From: an uncultured Clostridia bacterium
Lineage (GTDB): Bacteria; Bacillota; Clostridia; Christensenellales; UBA1242
Direction of reading: 5' to 3'
Assembly (NCBI GenBank): GCA_944384535.1
Contig: CALWTS010000022.1
Coordinates: 35,023 to 99,022, forward strand
DNA length: 64,000 bases
Shown here: positions 26,089-32,915 of the stretch, piece by piece
Numbering within the stretch: position 1 is the first letter of the stretch
How the letters are laid out: each line of letters opens with the position of its first letter
Program-made: the position numbers and the translations under genes
The notes under the pieces: generated by a model
Seen by the model: only the letters and a program-made list of their open reading frames with translations
The model's database searches: none
What the model was told of the DNA's origin: nothing

Positions 26089-26107
26089 AACTCTATTTAT
26101 TTTTTTT
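26074..26107. terminator. Palindromic bidirectional terminator overlapping both stop codons
   Basis: A 15-bp stem (26074-26088 with 26093-26107) around AACT. The stops TAG (26086-26088, plus) and CTA (26093-26095, minus) form the stem top, so both proteins end in KKNK. Confidence 0.9.
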
Positions 26108-26464
26108 GATAACAATAAAGGGTTGTTTTCTATATCTTTTTTCTAAACAATGATCATCAAACCACATATAAAAAAATCTAGAAGCAGGAAAATAATTATA
26201 TCCATCTTGACATCCATCTGTATCATCATAAGGATCAGCAAAAATCAAAATATCTTCATTTCCTTCATCAGATAATTTATCAAAACCTATTAAAAGTTTA
26301 TAGTGTCCACCATAATCTACATTTTCAAGTATGATAGGAGAACCTTCCGTTAAATTTGAAACAACAAAATTTCTAAAATCTTTATAGTCAGAGAAACATA
26401 AATCATTTTCTTTTCTTGGAAAATCAATACTTGAAATAATAGTATAAAGATTGTTTTTGTTCAT
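26093..26464 (-). CDS. C39-type peptidase, His/Asp half (frameshifted)
   Basis: This ORF carries the second half of a papain-fold C39-like peptidase: the probable catalytic His in DYGGHYKLLIGFD and Asp in LIFADPYDDTDG, followed by QDGYNYFPASRFFYMWFDDH. It lacks the catalytic Cys, which is in the preceding ORF (26461-26745). The two overlap by 4 nt (ATGA), with the junction in a run of six A: one extra A would fuse them into a normal single protein of about 218 residues. Either the gene is broken or misread by one base, or the ribosome slips or restarts. No good binding site precedes this ATG. It ends inside the shared palindromic terminator. Confidence 0.75.
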   Translation of the reverse strand: MNKNNLYTIISSIDFPRKENDLCFSDYKDFRNFVVSNLTEGSPIILENVDYGGHYKLLIGFDKLSDEGNEDILIFADPYDDTDGCQDGYNYFPASRFFYMWFDDHCLEKRYRKQPFIVIKKNK

Positions 26465-26745
26465 TTTTTAAAGAAGTTCACCATGTTTTTTAATTTTGTA
26501 CCATGATAAGGTCTAGTATTAATCATATTAGAAATTTTAAATTCATCTAAATTTGCTAATTCACAATTTTTTTCATTTGCAAATAAGTATTTTAAGACCA
26601 TTTCAATACATCTAGGTCCACAAGTATATTCTGTTTGTTGTTGTAATGTTTTGAAATGTTTAAGAATAACTAATGAAGATTTATTTAAGTTAGGTTCATT
26701 GTCAATATTATAAAAATTATAATGATAAAAATATTTATTTTTCAT
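26461..26745 (-). CDS. C39-type peptidase, catalytic Cys half (frameshifted)
   Basis: The 94-residue ORF contains the catalytic Cys region QQQTEYTCGPRCIEMVLKYL of a C39-like cysteine peptidase and ends right after TKLKNMVNFFKK at a TGA. The remaining catalytic residues are in the next ORF, which starts at the overlapping ATG. AAAGGA upstream supports the start at 26745. C39-type proteases of this soluble class have no transporter domain; peptide substrate unknown. See the partner entry for the frameshift. Confidence 0.75.
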   Translation of the reverse strand: MKNKYFYHYNFYNIDNEPNLNKSSLVILKHFKTLQQQTEYTCGPRCIEMVLKYLFANEKNCELANLDEFKISNMINTRPYHGTKLKNMVNFFKK

Positions 26746-28242: not shown

Positions 28243-28268
28243 AAAAAGTGGGGTATACCCATTTTTTT
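28243..28268 (+). terminator. Intrinsic terminator after tRNA-fMet
   Basis: TGGG (28249-28252) and CCCA (28258-28261) around GTATA, with A-run/T-run extension of the stem and a T tail. The frame starting at the ATG at 28248 begins inside this hairpin, which argues against that start for the next gene. Confidence 0.75.
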
Positions 28269-28286
28269 TATATAAAGGGTGGTAAT

Positions 28287-28913
28287 ATGTTAAATTTACA
28301 ACAAGTTGTAGAAAATTTTAAAATTATTCCTAGCGATAAAACAAATGAATGTTTGATTTCTAATATGAATAATCATGGGGGAGAGAATGTTCTTTATGTT
28401 TTTGCTGGACCAAATGGAAGTGGAAAATCTACGTTGATTGCAAATTTTTACTTAAATAGAAGTTTTGATAATGTTGGATATATAAATGCTGATGTTTATG
28501 CGAAAACAATATTTAAAGATGTGATAGATGAAAAAGAAAAAAACTATCAAGCAATGTATTATACAATAGATAAAATGTATAAAAATATTAAAACAGGAAA
28601 ATCTGTTGTTTATGAAACTGTTTTGTCTCATCCTAGTAAATTAGATATAATAAAAAAATACAAAGAAAATGGATATCAAGTAGTAGCTATTTTTATTTCT
28701 CCAGAAAAACCAGAAATTAACATTGAAAGGATAAAGAAAAGAGTAAAAGAAGGGGGACATGATGTTGACCCAATTAAAGTAAGGCAAAGATTTAATAGAA
28801 GTCATAAATTAAAAAGTGAATTAAAAAATATAAGTGATATATATTATGAAATCGATAATACTGATTTACCAAAAATTATACAAATAGATATAAATAATGA
28901 TAATGAAAAATAA
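28287..28913 (+). CDS. Zeta-toxin-like kinase, no visible antitoxin
   Basis: The 208-residue protein matches the zeta-toxin/predicted ATPase family: P-loop GPNGSGKST (41-49), YINADVYAKTIF (the zeta substrate-binding Asp region), VYETVLSHPSKLDII and the lid RVKEGGHDVDPIKVRQRF with its arginines. Zeta toxins phosphorylate UDP-N-acetylglucosamine precursors, poisoning wall synthesis, whereas chromosomal solo relatives may have other substrates. I moved the start to the ATG at 28287, preceded by AAAGGGTGG; the frame upstream runs through the tRNA terminator. No epsilon or PezA-like antitoxin gene lies next to it. A bidirectional terminator separates it from the convergent ABC gene. Confidence 0.85.
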   Translation: MLNLQQVVENFKIIPSDKTNECLISNMNNHGGENVLYVFAGPNGSGKSTLIANFYLNRSFDNVGYINADVYAKTIFKDVIDEKEKNYQAMYYTIDKMYKNIKTGKSVVYETVLSHPSKLDIIKKYKENGYQVVAIFISPEKPEINIERIKKRVKEGGHDVDPIKVRQRFNRSHKLKSELKNISDIYYEIDNTDLPKIIQIDINNDNEK

Positions 28914-28941
28914 AAAAACAATCTTTTGTGATTGTTTTTTT
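28912..28941. terminator. Bidirectional intrinsic terminator
   Basis: AAAAAAACAATC (28912-28923), 6-nt loop, GATTGTTTTTTT (28930-28941); overlaps both convergent stop codons. Confidence 0.9.
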
Positions 28942-30751
28942 AATTAATGTTTTCAGCAAAAAACATATTTTTGAATTTGATATTATTTTCAAATAAATAA
29001 TCAAAAGTGCCAATATCAACAATCTTTCCTTCATCTAGGAAGAAAATTTTATCAACATTTCTTATTGTGGATAATCTATGTGCAACAATGATTATGGTGC
29101 TTTTTCCTTTAAGAGAATCGATACTTTTCTTAATTTCTTCTTGTGCAAAATTGTCAAGAGAACTTGTGCTTTCATCAAATATTATAATTGATGAATTACG
29201 CAAAAGTGCTCTAGCAATAGCAAGTCTTTGTTTTTGACCTCCAGAAAGTTTAATTCCACTTTCGCCAACTTTAGTATCTAAACCTTTATGTAGGGAAGCT
29301 ACAAATTCTTTTAATGAAGCCTTATTAATAGCATCGTTTAATTCTTCATCTGTTGCATCTTCTTTTGCGAGTAGTAAATTTTCTTTTATAGACATATCAA
29401 AAATATATGGAAACTGATTAACAAGAGAGATTGCATTTCTTAAAGATTTTTTATCTAAATCGTTTATGTTAATGTTGTCAATAAGTACTTCACCATCATC
29501 AACTTCATACATTTTTGACATTAAGTTTAATATAGTCGATTTACCGCTACCAGATTTTCCAACGAAAGCGACAGTAGTATTAGGTTCAATTTTAAAAGAT
29601 AAATTGTCAAATATTTTATTTGTAGAAACAATTTTTCTTTCTTTGTTTTTTGTTTTATTTTCTTTTTTTAATTTCTCGTTTAAATTATGGTCATCAGGTT
29701 GTTCGTATTCTACATAAGAATAAGATACATTTTTAAATTCAATTTTACCTTTTATATTATTAAGTTCGACATTTCCAAATTTTTCACAAACAAATTCTTT
29801 ATCATCAAAAAGAGCAAACATTCTTTCAGTGCATACTTTAATTTCCACAAAAATATTTGCTATATTTCCAACTCCCCAAATAAAGCTATGAATATTTCCA
29901 TTATTAGAATAAATTATCATGAAAGCTGCAATAGTCAGAATTCCTAAATCAATTAAATATATTCCGAAAATAAGCATTAAAACTCCACAAAAATCAATAA
30001 TGAAGTTTCTAATAGACCAAAATCTCATGTTTGTAACTTCTGTTTTATAACATGTTTTTTTATAATCATCATAATTTTGTTTTGAGACTTCACTCAATTT
30101 AGCTTCTAACCCTAGAGCTTTAATATCTTTTTCGCTTCGTATAATTTCAGTAGTAAGAGAATTTATTATATCATTCTTTTTTCTAGTAATTCTTCTATTT
30201 TTTCTATTAATTTTATTTCTTTTTAATTCAATTATTAAACAAATAACAATTATTGCAAGTAGAATTAACCCCATATAAACGTTAATGGTAGAAATATAGA
30301 TAACAATTATGATAGCGGTAATAATATCTGTAAAAATTTCAACTAAATCAGCTAAGTTATTAACAACACGTTCAGGATCATAAACAATTCTTTGTACAAA
30401 TGTCCCAGTGTCATGATCTGCGTAAGTTTTTGAATTAAGTTTGAAAGCCTGTTTTGCAAGATCTAAGTTTAAATCAGCCATAATTTTATTAGAGTATTTG
30501 TAATAAATCAAGTAAGCAATATACCAACAAATTCTTTTTATAACAATCAAAGAAGCTGCGAAAAGCATTGTATAGATTGCTTGTTTGTAAAGTTTTATTG
30601 TGAGTAATTCAATTGCTTTAGCGAATGATATTGTTTCAAAAATTGTACATGCACTAGCAATAATATAAACTAAAATATAAAAGAAGATTGCAAGTTTGTA
30701 CGTTTTTAGATATTTAGTTAGATTAATTTTATTGATTTTAATTTTTTCCAT
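28940..30751 (-). CDS. ABC exporter, fused permease and ATPase
   Basis: A half-transporter of 603 residues that should dimerise. Residues 1-300 form the six-helix membrane domain. The ATPase follows: Walker A VGKSGSGKST, Q-loop VNQFPYIF, signature LSGGQKQRLAIARAL, Walker B SIIIFDEST and the H-loop AHRLST. A charged insert (DDHNLNEKLKKENKTKNKE) lies just before the ATPase core. It resembles multidrug or peptide exporters of the BmrA/LmrA/MsbA layout; the substrate is unknown. The ATG at 30751 follows CGGAGG, which is part of the terminator hairpin of an attenuator, and a 27-codon leader ORF lies upstream. This arrangement suggests induction by ribosome stalling. Confidence 0.93.
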   Translation of the reverse strand: MEKIKINKINLTKYLKTYKLAIFFYILVYIIASACTIFETISFAKAIELLTIKLYKQAIYTMLFAASLIVIKRICWYIAYLIYYKYSNKIMADLNLDLAKQAFKLNSKTYADHDTGTFVQRIVYDPERVVNNLADLVEIFTDIITAIIIVIYISTINVYMGLILLAIIVICLIIELKRNKINRKNRRITRKKNDIINSLTTEIIRSEKDIKALGLEAKLSEVSKQNYDDYKKTCYKTEVTNMRFWSIRNFIIDFCGVLMLIFGIYLIDLGILTIAAFMIIYSNNGNIHSFIWGVGNIANIFVEIKVCTERMFALFDDKEFVCEKFGNVELNNIKGKIEFKNVSYSYVEYEQPDDHNLNEKLKKENKTKNKERKIVSTNKIFDNLSFKIEPNTTVAFVGKSGSGKSTILNLMSKMYEVDDGEVLIDNININDLDKKSLRNAISLVNQFPYIFDMSIKENLLLAKEDATDEELNDAINKASLKEFVASLHKGLDTKVGESGIKLSGGQKQRLAIARALLRNSSIIIFDESTSSLDNFAQEEIKKSIDSLKGKSTIIIVAHRLSTIRNVDKIFFLDEGKIVDIGTFDYLFENNIKFKNMFFAENIN

Positions 30752-30783
30752 AAAAAACCTCCGTATAAATGTTTACGAAGGTT
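30752..30783 (-). terminator. Attenuator terminator that also hides the ribosome binding site
   Basis: On the minus strand AACCTTCGTA (30783-30774) pairs with TACGGAGGTT (30765-30756; one T-G pair), followed by six T and the ABC gene ATG. The GGAGG binding site lies in the second arm. The first arm is also complementary to TACGAATGGTT (30847-30837) within the leader ORF, one T bulged, which gives a competing antiterminator. Confidence 0.8.
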
Positions 30784-30822
30784 ACTATAATAAAATTTAG
30801 CAAAAATAAGTCTATAAAAAAA

Positions 30823-30906
30823 TTATTTTATAATAGAACCATTCGTATAACAGTAATTATTTAAGTAATTAGATTCATTTTTTAATAAAAATTTATATAT
30901 TATCAT
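30823..30906 (-). CDS. Leader peptide of the ABC exporter, 27 residues
   Basis: ATG at 30906 with GGAG 9 nt upstream encodes MIIYKFLLKNESNYLNNYCY followed by TNGSIIK and a TAA at 30825-30823. It is Tyr- and Asn-rich (four Tyr, five Asn), has no signal peptide and no obvious export or antimicrobial features. Its 3' third contains the antiterminator segment (30847-30837, from codon 20 to 24), so its translation can decide whether the downstream terminator forms. The layout is that of a leader ORF like bmrB, which controls the bmrCD exporter in Bacillus subtilis by ribosome-mediated attenuation. No antibiotic or amino-acid sensor can be identified. Confidence 0.7.
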   Translation of the reverse strand: MIIYKFLLKNESNYLNNYCYTNGSIIK

Positions 30907-30950
30907 TAAATGATTCTCCTTTTGTTAAAATAATTTATTACGATAGAATA

Positions 30951-30979
30951 ATTAAAGCATATTATAGACAATTTGTCAA
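30951..30979 (-). promoter_or_regulatory. Promoter of the ABC exporter leader
   Basis: Minus strand TTGACA (30979-30974), 17 nt, TTTAAT (30956-30951) with TG one base before it. It lies just after the preceding gene, so the leader and exporter have their own transcript. The gap 30752-30986 holds this promoter, the leader ORF and the attenuator. Confidence 0.8.
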
Positions 30980-30986
30980 TATTTTT

Positions 30987-32864
30987 TTATAAAGAAAAAT
31001 CTTCTATCGAAAAATCTGCACTTTCAATAACTTTTCCTTTAGCTCCTATTTCTATAGCAGGGGAAATATCATTTTTTTCACTATTACCAATAACAAAAAG
31101 TTCTTCAGGTTTTATATTTTCTTTTTGAATAATTTCTTGATAGATAAATTTTTTACTTGTTTGTCCATTTTCAAATTTATTAATGTAAATACCGCTAAAT
31201 AAACTTAAATCAATATTTAATTGTTTACTAGTTTCATTAATTTCTTTTAAAGTTGAATTTGAAACAATATAGATTTTATATTTTTCCGCAAATTTACTTA
31301 AAGTTGAATTACTTGTAACTTTACAGTTTGATAGATCAACAGGACATTCATTATGTTCTCTATAATCAAGCCAAACATTTACATTTTTTTTATTTTCAAT
31401 AAGTTTTTTAACAATATATTCATCAGATAAATCTTTAATATCATTAAAGTTTTCATTTTTAAAGAAATAATTTAAAGCTTTTACACAAAATTCATTCCAA
31501 GGTGTCCAATCCACACCACTATATAAAGTATCATCAAAGTCAAATATTACAACTTTGATATTATTATTAATATTTTTCATCCAATTTTTTCTTTTAAATA
31601 TTATAAAATCTAATATAGTTAAAACAATTGGTGGAAACATTATAAAAGCATATGTTAAATATATATTTACAGGTAAAAATTGTGCGATAAAATAAATTCC
31701 TACGAAATATAACATTGCTATAACTTCTTGCCACATTAAAAGACGAACTTTTCCACCCCAGCATAGTATATATGAACTTAAATTCCAAGATAAAAATCTA
31801 AAAAGATGCATTACAACATATAGTAAAAGACTAATAAACGCTCCTGATTGAATATCTTTACTCATACCATTAATAATTGGAATTGAAAAACTCAAACTTA
31901 GTATAAAGTAGATAAACCAAATAACAATAGTTGCATATAATGAATAAGTTCCTGTTTTATAAGCTTCTTTAAATTTATTTTCACCTAATTGTCTGCAAAT
32001 ATCTATACTTGTTACAACTATAAAAGAAAACAAGAGTCCATTAAATAAATCAAGCACATTTTCAAAATATGAATATTGGTTAAAGAAGATTTCACTCACT
32101 CTTAATATAAAGAAAGAAAGCATAATGTATCCTATTTGCCAAATAAATTGAGTGACAAACATTCGCCATATAATAATAAATTCTTCTTTTGAAATTTTAA
32201 ATTTTGTAAATTTAAAGAGATTTACTTTAAAATATTTATTGTTTTTAAAATAAATGATTACAAAAGTTAGCGTAGTAATAGTTGTAAAAATATAAATTAA
32301 AGGTATTAAATCTAACGACATATTAAAGCAGAAATAGGTAATTAAAAATCCTATAATAATAAGACAAGATTTAATAACAGCATCTAGCATTTCAGCTATA
32401 AAAATTTTCAATTCTTTTAAAATATTACAAATAAAGGTAGAATTAGTAGAAAAAAACATATAAATTAGCATAACAAAATAAAATTTATAATCAATTGTTG
32501 TAGGTAGGGCAAGTAAGCCGTGTAAAACTGGATAATAACAAGATGCTAAAATAATAACAAATATAATTGAACAGAAAAAATTAAGGTATAAACCTACTTT
32601 TATATAACGTGTAACTATTTTTTCATCTTTAATATTTTGATTTATATAAACACTAACTCCATTTGAAATTCCGAAAGCAATAATGTCACAAAAGTATGCA
32701 ATACTTAAAATTGCATTAAAGTAAGTAAGATCGTTAATATTCATTGTGTTTGCGAGTATAGAGCTGATTGTTAAATAAACTGCTAAAATTAAATACTTTA
32801 GCAAAACCCATTTAGCACTTTTATAAGTTTTGAAAAAATAAATCCAAAATTCTTTTTTAAGCAT
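30987..32864 (-). CDS. Flippase-like membrane protein fused to HAD phosphatase
   Basis: The N-terminal ~430 residues carry about 12 membrane helices of the MATE/polysaccharide-flippase (MOP) type. From about residue 438 a HAD hydrolase follows: motif I VVIFDFDDTLYSG, motif II IVSNST, a K-containing TSKKFIYQ and motif IV VIGNSEKNDISPA. Motif I retains DxD, so the domain may be active. The combination is unusual and could couple lipid-linked sugar flipping to dephosphorylation of an undecaprenyl-phosphate or sugar-phosphate species. I chose the ATG at 32864, preceded by AAAGGAT; the frame upstream of it is open. It lies 58 nt after metG with a hairpin between. Confidence 0.8.
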   Translation of the reverse strand: MLKKEFWIYFFKTYKSAKWVLLKYLILAVYLTISSILANTMNINDLTYFNAILSIAYFCDIIAFGISNGVSVYINQNIKDEKIVTRYIKVGLYLNFFCSIIFVIILASCYYPVLHGLLALPTTIDYKFYFVMLIYMFFSTNSTFICNILKELKIFIAEMLDAVIKSCLIIIGFLITYFCFNMSLDLIPLIYIFTTITTLTFVIIYFKNNKYFKVNLFKFTKFKISKEEFIIIWRMFVTQFIWQIGYIMLSFFILRVSEIFFNQYSYFENVLDLFNGLLFSFIVVTSIDICRQLGENKFKEAYKTGTYSLYATIVIWFIYFILSLSFSIPIINGMSKDIQSGAFISLLLYVVMHLFRFLSWNLSSYILCWGGKVRLLMWQEVIAMLYFVGIYFIAQFLPVNIYLTYAFIMFPPIVLTILDFIIFKRKNWMKNINNNIKVVIFDFDDTLYSGVDWTPWNEFCVKALNYFFKNENFNDIKDLSDEYIVKKLIENKKNVNVWLDYREHNECPVDLSNCKVTSNSTLSKFAEKYKIYIVSNSTLKEINETSKQLNIDLSLFSGIYINKFENGQTSKKFIYQEIIQKENIKPEELFVIGNSEKNDISPAIEIGAKGKVIESADFSIEDFSL

Positions 32865-32896
32865 AAAATATCCTTTAACCCAAGGTAAAAACAAAG

Positions 32897-32915
32897 AACC
32901 TATCAATGATAGGTT
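32897..32915 (-). terminator. Weak hairpin between metG and the flippase gene
   Basis: A perfect 8-bp stem (AACCTATC with GATAGGTT, 3-nt loop) 8 nt after the metG stop; its minus-strand tail is T-rich but interrupted, so partial termination or RNA stabilisation is likely. Confidence 0.5.

Follow-up and report, generated by a model that had tools for sequence, protein, structure and literature searches.

A predicted ribosome-mediated attenuator, with four segments in mutually exclusive pairings, upstream of a gene for an ABC exporter from uncultured Clostridia

Control of vmlR in Bacillus subtilis is described as attenuation at both the transcriptional and the translational level (PMC9226507). 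The genes ermK, mef/mel and lmo0919 are likewise listed as antibiotic resistance genes with leader-region attenuators that act on transcription (PMC5418344), and at the toiL uORF of Escherichia coli topAI, tetracycline is reported to stall ribosomes at the start codon and to open the RNA around the topAI binding site (PMC12121999). A survey from 2010 reports that ABC genes can be preceded by attenuators, in one case at an operon for multidrug export in lactobacilli (PMC2965389). Here we analyzed a leader of an ABC exporter gene from an uncultured Clostridia bacterium, for which no paper was found among the matches listed in a search of the open-access literature. Our results make it highly probable that this leader is a ribosome-mediated transcription attenuator of four segments with mutually exclusive pairings, with masking of the exporter Shine-Dalgarno (SD) sequence in most of the 28 loci compared.

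The window, by which we mean the whole 64,000-nt stretch of DNA that was analyzed, corresponds to positions 35023-99022 of contig C22 in a genome of 1.24 Mb (Table 1). The exporter scored below the curated cut-off for each of the 25 best of 184 matched NCBIfam families, and among the best 60 of 281 matches to solved structures it shows a general resemblance to P-gp, Sav1866 and MsbA. Its relatives are from uncultured Clostridia, one being Candidatus Caccovivens faecavium. A single exporter gene follows the leader and the next downstream gene is on the opposite strand. A zeta-toxin-like kinase gene (28248-28913, plus strand; PF06414, E 7.9e-12), which adjoins a tRNA gene, converges on the exporter gene. 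On its other side the single ORF at 30987-32906 (minus strand) combines a HAD hydrolase domain with a membrane part, for which the MATE match is weak and just below the Pfam cut-off. At 26093-26745 (minus strand) there are two ORFs in different frames, first one of 94 aa that weakly matches C39 peptidases and then one of 123 aa, the two perhaps being one broken gene.

Table 1. Features of the leader and the exporter gene, in positions of the window
Feature	Position	Strand	Basis or remark
Leader region	30979-30749	minus	between stop of gene 32906-30987 and exporter ATG 30751
Promoter TTGACA-17-TTTAAT, TG preceding -10	30951..30979	minus	sequence
-35 TTGACA, followed by 17-nt spacer	30979-30974	minus	sequence
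-10 TTTAAT	30956-30951	minus	sequence
Leader SD AGGAG	30916..30920	minus	sequence
Segment A AGAATCATTT, leader SD region, 5' arm of anti-antiterminator	30908..30917	minus	pairs with 30835-30844
Leader ORF, 27 codons, MIIYKFLLKNESNYLNNYCYTNGSIIK	30823..30906	minus	ATG at 30906, stop ends 30823
Segment B, antiterminator 5' strand, end of leader ORF	30835..30847	minus	pairs with A or C
Segment C, terminator 5' arm	30774..30783	minus	partner of B
Segment D, terminator 3' arm	30756..30765	minus	contains exporter SD GGAGG (30758-30762)
Predicted terminator, six-T run	30752..30757	minus	sequence; abuts exporter ATG 30751
ABC exporter, 603 aa, half-transporter (transmembrane domain and ATPase)	28940..30751	minus	PF00664 and PF00005

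A first-pass annotation of this DNA had listed a promoter, a 27-codon leader ORF with a good binding site and a terminator (30783-30756) that ends in six T's before the exporter ATG and holds the exporter GGAGG in its second arm, and every one of these elements is present (Table 1). The antiterminator that it drew from inside the leader ORF, with 10 pairs and one bulge, was reproduced by duplex folding, in which TACGAATGGTT (30847-30837) pairs with AACCTTCGTA and the bulged base is a T. Two of the six T's double as the last pairs of the stem, and the region 30200-31600 holds only one terminator-like site, as compared to 0.0 (sd 0.2) expected from shuffled sequences. We predict from these features that the hairpin and its U run form an intrinsic terminator. 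The promoter is shared by the relatives: TTGACA with at least 10 of 12 promoter positions is present in 28 of 28 leaders, and the 17-nt spacer in 27 of them. No covariance model of Rfam 15 matched window positions 30700-31020 at E <= 1, nor did any match seven related loci at E <= 0.1, and an Rfam riboswitch or known leader was rejected on this basis.

By duplex folding, 28 leaders (the window and 27 relatives) form three helices that share strands. Segment A is the leader SD and start region, B is the end of the leader ORF, and C and D are the terminator arms. The helices A:B, B:C and C:D are mutually exclusive in a chain of the same kind as segments 1:2, 2:3 and 3:4 of the trp leader. In the window, A:B joins AGAATCATTT to GAATGGTTCT (30844-30835) by 10 pairs including G-U, which was equalled by 3 of 100 shuffles, and in many relatives the helix extends through the leader start codon. 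In none of the 28 leaders did more than 5 of 100 shuffles equal A:B; for B:C the number did not exceed 7 of 100 in 27 leaders and was 19 of 100 in the remaining one (L019). The window's own A:B is weak, with pairing at least as good as the native one from 4 of 24 foreign B segments, and both A:B and B:C are absent from the minimum-energy folds of its full-length leader.

The exporter SD is carried on the 3' arm of the terminator hairpin, with the ATG immediately after, in 20 of the 28 loci. The terminator lies apart from the exporter SD in 8, which speaks for termination of transcription in addition to masking of the SD; the transcriptional and the translational level are likely both in play, as reported for vmlR (PMC9226507). 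By eye, five loci (L010, L016, L017, L021 and L026) have an extra CCTTCG arm between terminator and exporter SD, in L010 as part of a full second hairpin, and in these the terminator and the SD mask look as if they were split between two copies.

Folding predictions with masked segments were made for 52 leaders. In the unmasked full-length RNA, A:B formed together with C:D in 50 of 52, and when B was masked C:D was formed in 50 of 52. With the 5' part masked and D still unmade, B:C was obtained in 52 of 52. When the same mask was applied to the full-length RNA, B:C without C:D was found in 14 of 52 only, and at least six B:C pairs in 22 of 52, some of them with part of C:D, so that read-through has to be decided while the RNA is being made and not at equilibrium. 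In the unmasked RNA with D still unmade, A:B formed in 28 and B:C in 23 of 52, so by a simple fold the state without a ribosome is not cleanly "off".

Compensatory changes were counted in an alignment of 46 rows, among them the truncated L091 and an additional, incomplete match from L010. This alignment (A4) was fitted to a model of A:B with C:D and thus leans towards that model, in which 90.3% of the cells are paired and both sides have changed in 22 of 31 pairs (68 cells vs. 21.9 in shuffles, reached by 0 of 500). Of the outer A:B pairs, 12 of 14 are doubly changed somewhere in the 46 rows. B:C stood outside the model and is paired in 92.7% of cells, with double changes in 7 of 12 pairs (17 cells vs. 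6.0 shuffled, reached by 0 of 500). When the partners were shifted, pairing fell to 25-55%. Within a close set of 17 leaders B:C has 3 doubly changed pairs (vs. 0.7, 0 of 500 shuffles); A:B with C:D shows no excess of pairs there (2 vs. 1.8), because the close set hardly varies, and a modest excess of cells (6 vs. 3.0, 12 of 500 shuffles). We also exchanged partners among 25 chosen divergent leaders. The mean energy was -16.3 kcal/mol with own vs. -9.9 with swapped partners for A:B, and -16.3 vs. -10.4 kcal/mol for B:C, and the own partner was strictly best in 10 of 25 (A:B) and 5 of 25 (B:C). Exceptions were L157 (A:B) and L179 (B:C), where the own partner paired less well than swapped partners did on average, and L147 (B:C), where the two were equal. 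The promoter, leader ORF, antiterminator and terminator are conserved in related genomes. The switch proposed in the first-pass annotation, which a lack of conservation of the ORF or the pairing segments would have contradicted, thus survives this check, and the comparison of the sequences predicts an antiterminator and a terminator that are mutually exclusive and maintained by compensatory change.

The initial contig scan gave 59 loci, and from L009-L053 we tried 43 (L018 and L051 start within the exporter gene). The full layout stands before orthologous exporters in 27 of these 43 relatives. The 16 relatives where it was not found are L027, L029, L031, L032, L034, L037, L040 and L041-L049; L040 has a degenerate leader with only three codons left, and L037, the same contig as L170, has no leader by eye. 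A model (R1) built from the 17 close leaders was run on 297 genomes of the family and gave a match at E <= 0.1 in 56, for which the downstream ORFs were compared with the exporter. On reading, the match is a leader in 45 of the 297 genomes, 43 of them upstream of the orthologous exporter (window included), one at a contig end (L087) and one before a remnant (L091); in the other 11 no exporter follows and the match reads as an ordinary terminator. Each R1 match with E <= 1.2e-4 is a leader, and a second target gene was rejected since all these matches, bar L087 and L091, precede the same exporter. A further search covered 297 order-level genomes, with those of the family among them; outside the family no match fell below E 4e-4, and three weaker ones had E 4.7e-4 to 0.0097. 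In this search and in that of the family the filters were set stricter, at the cost of weak matches, and the genomes were a sample of a larger group. In L091/L127 (G054:C3, ~29559-29678), A and B stand directly before only the last 151 exporter residues, 83% identical to those of the window, as if the terminator and most of the exporter gene had been deleted.

In a second set of 60 upstream regions of orthologs, a leader was found in 25, 17 by script and 8 by eye (L136, L140, L157, L158, L165, L171, L177 and L187), and 35 were without. At least 17 of the 60 are on contigs of the initial scan, including 9 of the 25 leaders, which leaves 16 new ones. L136 is the contig of L039, and L145 equals the degenerate L040 and was counted among the 35; the terminator chosen by the script for L141 is doubtful. 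The leader starts with GTG in L157 and L187, and in L165 B is placed beyond the leader stop. The leader is thus absent from many related exporters (16 of 43 and 35 of 60 in the two sets). Another kind of leader was seen in the same family at L121 (G047:C2:298900-302200, minus 1707-1537), where a gene named by eye as AspRS-like lies behind a promoter-like stretch, a leader and a terminator. This leader, translated by eye as VVKVILVNNNNNNFNVTQ, starts with GTG and contains six Asn codons in a row, and a stretch past its stop can pair with the terminator (by eye); the arrangement resembles that of a classic Asn attenuator, here on AspRS.

For the analysis of the leader ORF, near-identical relatives were reduced to one each (72 to 63 rows); 8 further repeats were left out of the amino-acid, Asn-cluster and open-frame counts, and these 8 with 3 more from another set. 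The leader frame is open over 18-36 codons in 55 of 55 distinct leaders, which are all that were tried and have an ORF of at least 15 codons, as compared to 2 of 55 and 3 of 55 for the same stretch in the +1 and +2 frames. Segment B was located by motif in 47 of the 63 rows, three of which (L035, L094 and L112) had a wrong short ORF, leaving 44 usable. B is read as HTNG or HANG in most leaders, as IRMV in L014, L015 and L086, and in the third frame in L039, L052 and L109, so it is not the peptide that is conserved. In every frame the leader stop is 17-35 nt past the start of B (44 of 63 rows), which would place B under a terminating ribosome whatever the frame. Judged from these sequences, the leader is retained as an ORF and not as a peptide, which fits a switch set by ribosome position and would disallow a sensor of the whole peptide, although a part for the first leader codons may remain.

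The leader had earlier been called rich in Tyr and Asn. Of the two, Asn is enriched: every one of the 30 leader clusters has it within codons 2-12, vs. 22.7 in dinucleotide shuffles (0 of 1000). Tyr is below the shuffled expectation across the 55 leaders (15 vs. 44.8); its abundance is only a quirk of the window copy, and the idea of a Tyr-rich leader was dropped. Val is likewise enriched, which we attribute to the A:B pairing of ATGGTT. Among 16 further divergent leaders, three of them translated by eye, three have no Asn in codons 2-12 (L163, L179 and L186). In a set of 37 chosen representatives Asn peaks 4-5 codons before B, in 20 of 37 vs. 12.3 in shuffled order (7 of 2000 shuffles; 58 of 2000 for any window), and without close relatives this becomes 15 of 31 vs. 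10.6, reached by 115 of 2000 shuffles. AsnRS gave three matches in the genome, all under the cut-off.

The mechanism put forward in the first-pass annotation, a ribosome that stalls early vs. one that finishes the leader, fits this anatomy, although it had missed the third helix, A:B. With A:B included, the leader would work as follows. If no ribosome is present, A:B would form and leave C free for D, giving termination. A ribosome that reaches the leader stop would cover B, and C:D could then form, with termination and with the exporter SD buried. If instead the ribosome halts anywhere from the start codon up to roughly codon 10, A would be blocked from pairing and B left free; B:C would form while C is made, ahead of D, and RNA polymerase would read through with the exporter SD exposed. 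Since A is placed over the start codon, arrest at initiation would count too. The signal would be the position of the ribosome and not the peptide. That the leader is translated, that transcription terminates there in the cell and that the helices fold in this order is inferred here, and we infer in the same way that the leader senses antibiotics and that read-through depends on leader translation, with which the open frame and the placement of the stop are consistent. The physiological trigger would presumably be a translation inhibitor that the exporter helps to remove.

Several other explanations have to be weighed against this attenuator. The hairpin could simply be a constitutive terminator or mark the 3' end of the gene upstream, in which case leader ORF and pairings would be due to chance. 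Evidence from a single locus would leave room for this, and the window's own A:B is weak, but the promoter before the leader and the open frame are conserved and the helices covary, which makes this explanation barely credible; an ordinary terminator or chance pairing was rejected because of the covariation. It is also unlikely that the leader acts on translation only, C:D being nothing more than a mask of the exporter SD. The 20 hairpins that carry the SD on their 3' arm would be expected in such a case, and T runs are common in such AT-rich DNA. However, the hairpin scores as a terminator where 0.0 are expected by chance, and in 8 of 28 loci hairpin and T run stand apart from the SD, five of these with the second CCTTCG arm before it.

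What arrests the ribosome is a separate matter. The leader could be an amino-acid attenuator that senses charged tRNA-Asn, with Asn starvation stalling the ribosome just before B. Such a sensor would agree with the Asn in codons 2-12 of all 30 clusters (vs. 86 of 136 among long ORFs that have an SD-like motif but were not curated), with the position of the Asn peak relative to B, and with the presence in the same family of an AspRS-like gene behind a six-Asn leader run (L121). But most leaders lack a long Asn codon run, an exporter is an odd target, the peak weakens once close relatives are left out, and both amino acid and position were chosen post hoc. With the three Asn-free cases among the 16 further leaders, we consider this very unlikely, and a strict Asn sensor was dropped. 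A codon run for a single amino acid is not found in every leader. General or drug-caused arrest is favoured over an amino-acid signal because 3 of 16 further leaders have no Asn there and the positional peak is weak.

Going beyond the ribosome-mediated attenuator as such, the leader may belong to an undescribed RNA family in which the position of the ribosome alone, through any arrest within roughly the first 10 codons and at initiation too, switches on one exporter. We hold this as a possible reading that falls somewhat short of being probable. If true, the RNA family would so far be confined to one family of uncultured Clostridia with small genomes, and would unite terminator, exporter SD and leader SD in one unit of four segments. 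It would then be a peptide-independent sensor of general translation stress on a freely drifting leader peptide, and the Asn enrichment would mark the usual stall site, by tRNA-Asn supply or by a drug acting there. The attenuator predicts that the exporter is turned on under translation stress in an otherwise uncharacterised lineage, and its ~230 bases would be a ready reporter for which antibiotics this lineage meets. With dozens of natural variants in the clade and B in all three frames, it offers a rare separation of RNA pairing and ribosome position from the peptide.

Compared with the systems described so far, our best reading is that the leader is a ribosome-mediated attenuator of an already known kind, which would work like vmlR and bmrB, with vmlR as the closest analogue. 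As that leader is described (PMC9226507), both have a uORF in an anti-antiterminator hairpin, a competing antiterminator, an intrinsic terminator and an SD-masking hairpin, as predicted in our case, and both precede a gene of the ABC class, for resistance in vmlR and for an exporter here. In the same account the vmlR uORF has 3 codons and its SD is single-stranded ahead of the hairpin, whereas the leaders analyzed here have 18-36 codons and their SD and start region is arm A itself; and unlike in vmlR, a single hairpin would serve as terminator and as SD mask at once in 20 of 28 loci. The product of vmlR is an ABCF factor (PMC9226507), in contrast to the membrane exporter here. The toiL leader, according to its description, is likewise a single uORF read out by ribosome position, comparable to the start region covered by segment A, but it acts by SD masking and Rho on a toxin-antitoxin target, in contrast to the predicted intrinsic terminator and the exporter here (PMC12121999). 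The likeness to ermK, mef/mel and lmo0919 is one of description, as these are other genes with other leaders (PMC5418344). The first-pass annotation had pointed to the bmrB/bmrCD type, and as a working analogy this is useful, since bmrB of B. subtilis bmrCD is described as a leader ORF with ribosome-mediated transcription attenuation of an ABC multidrug exporter (PMC4191407). Membership in that type does not follow: in bmrB, by the same description (PMC4191407), the terminator is inside the leader ORF and two half-transporter genes come after it, whereas here the leader stop ends at 30823, the terminator starts at 30783 and one exporter gene follows.
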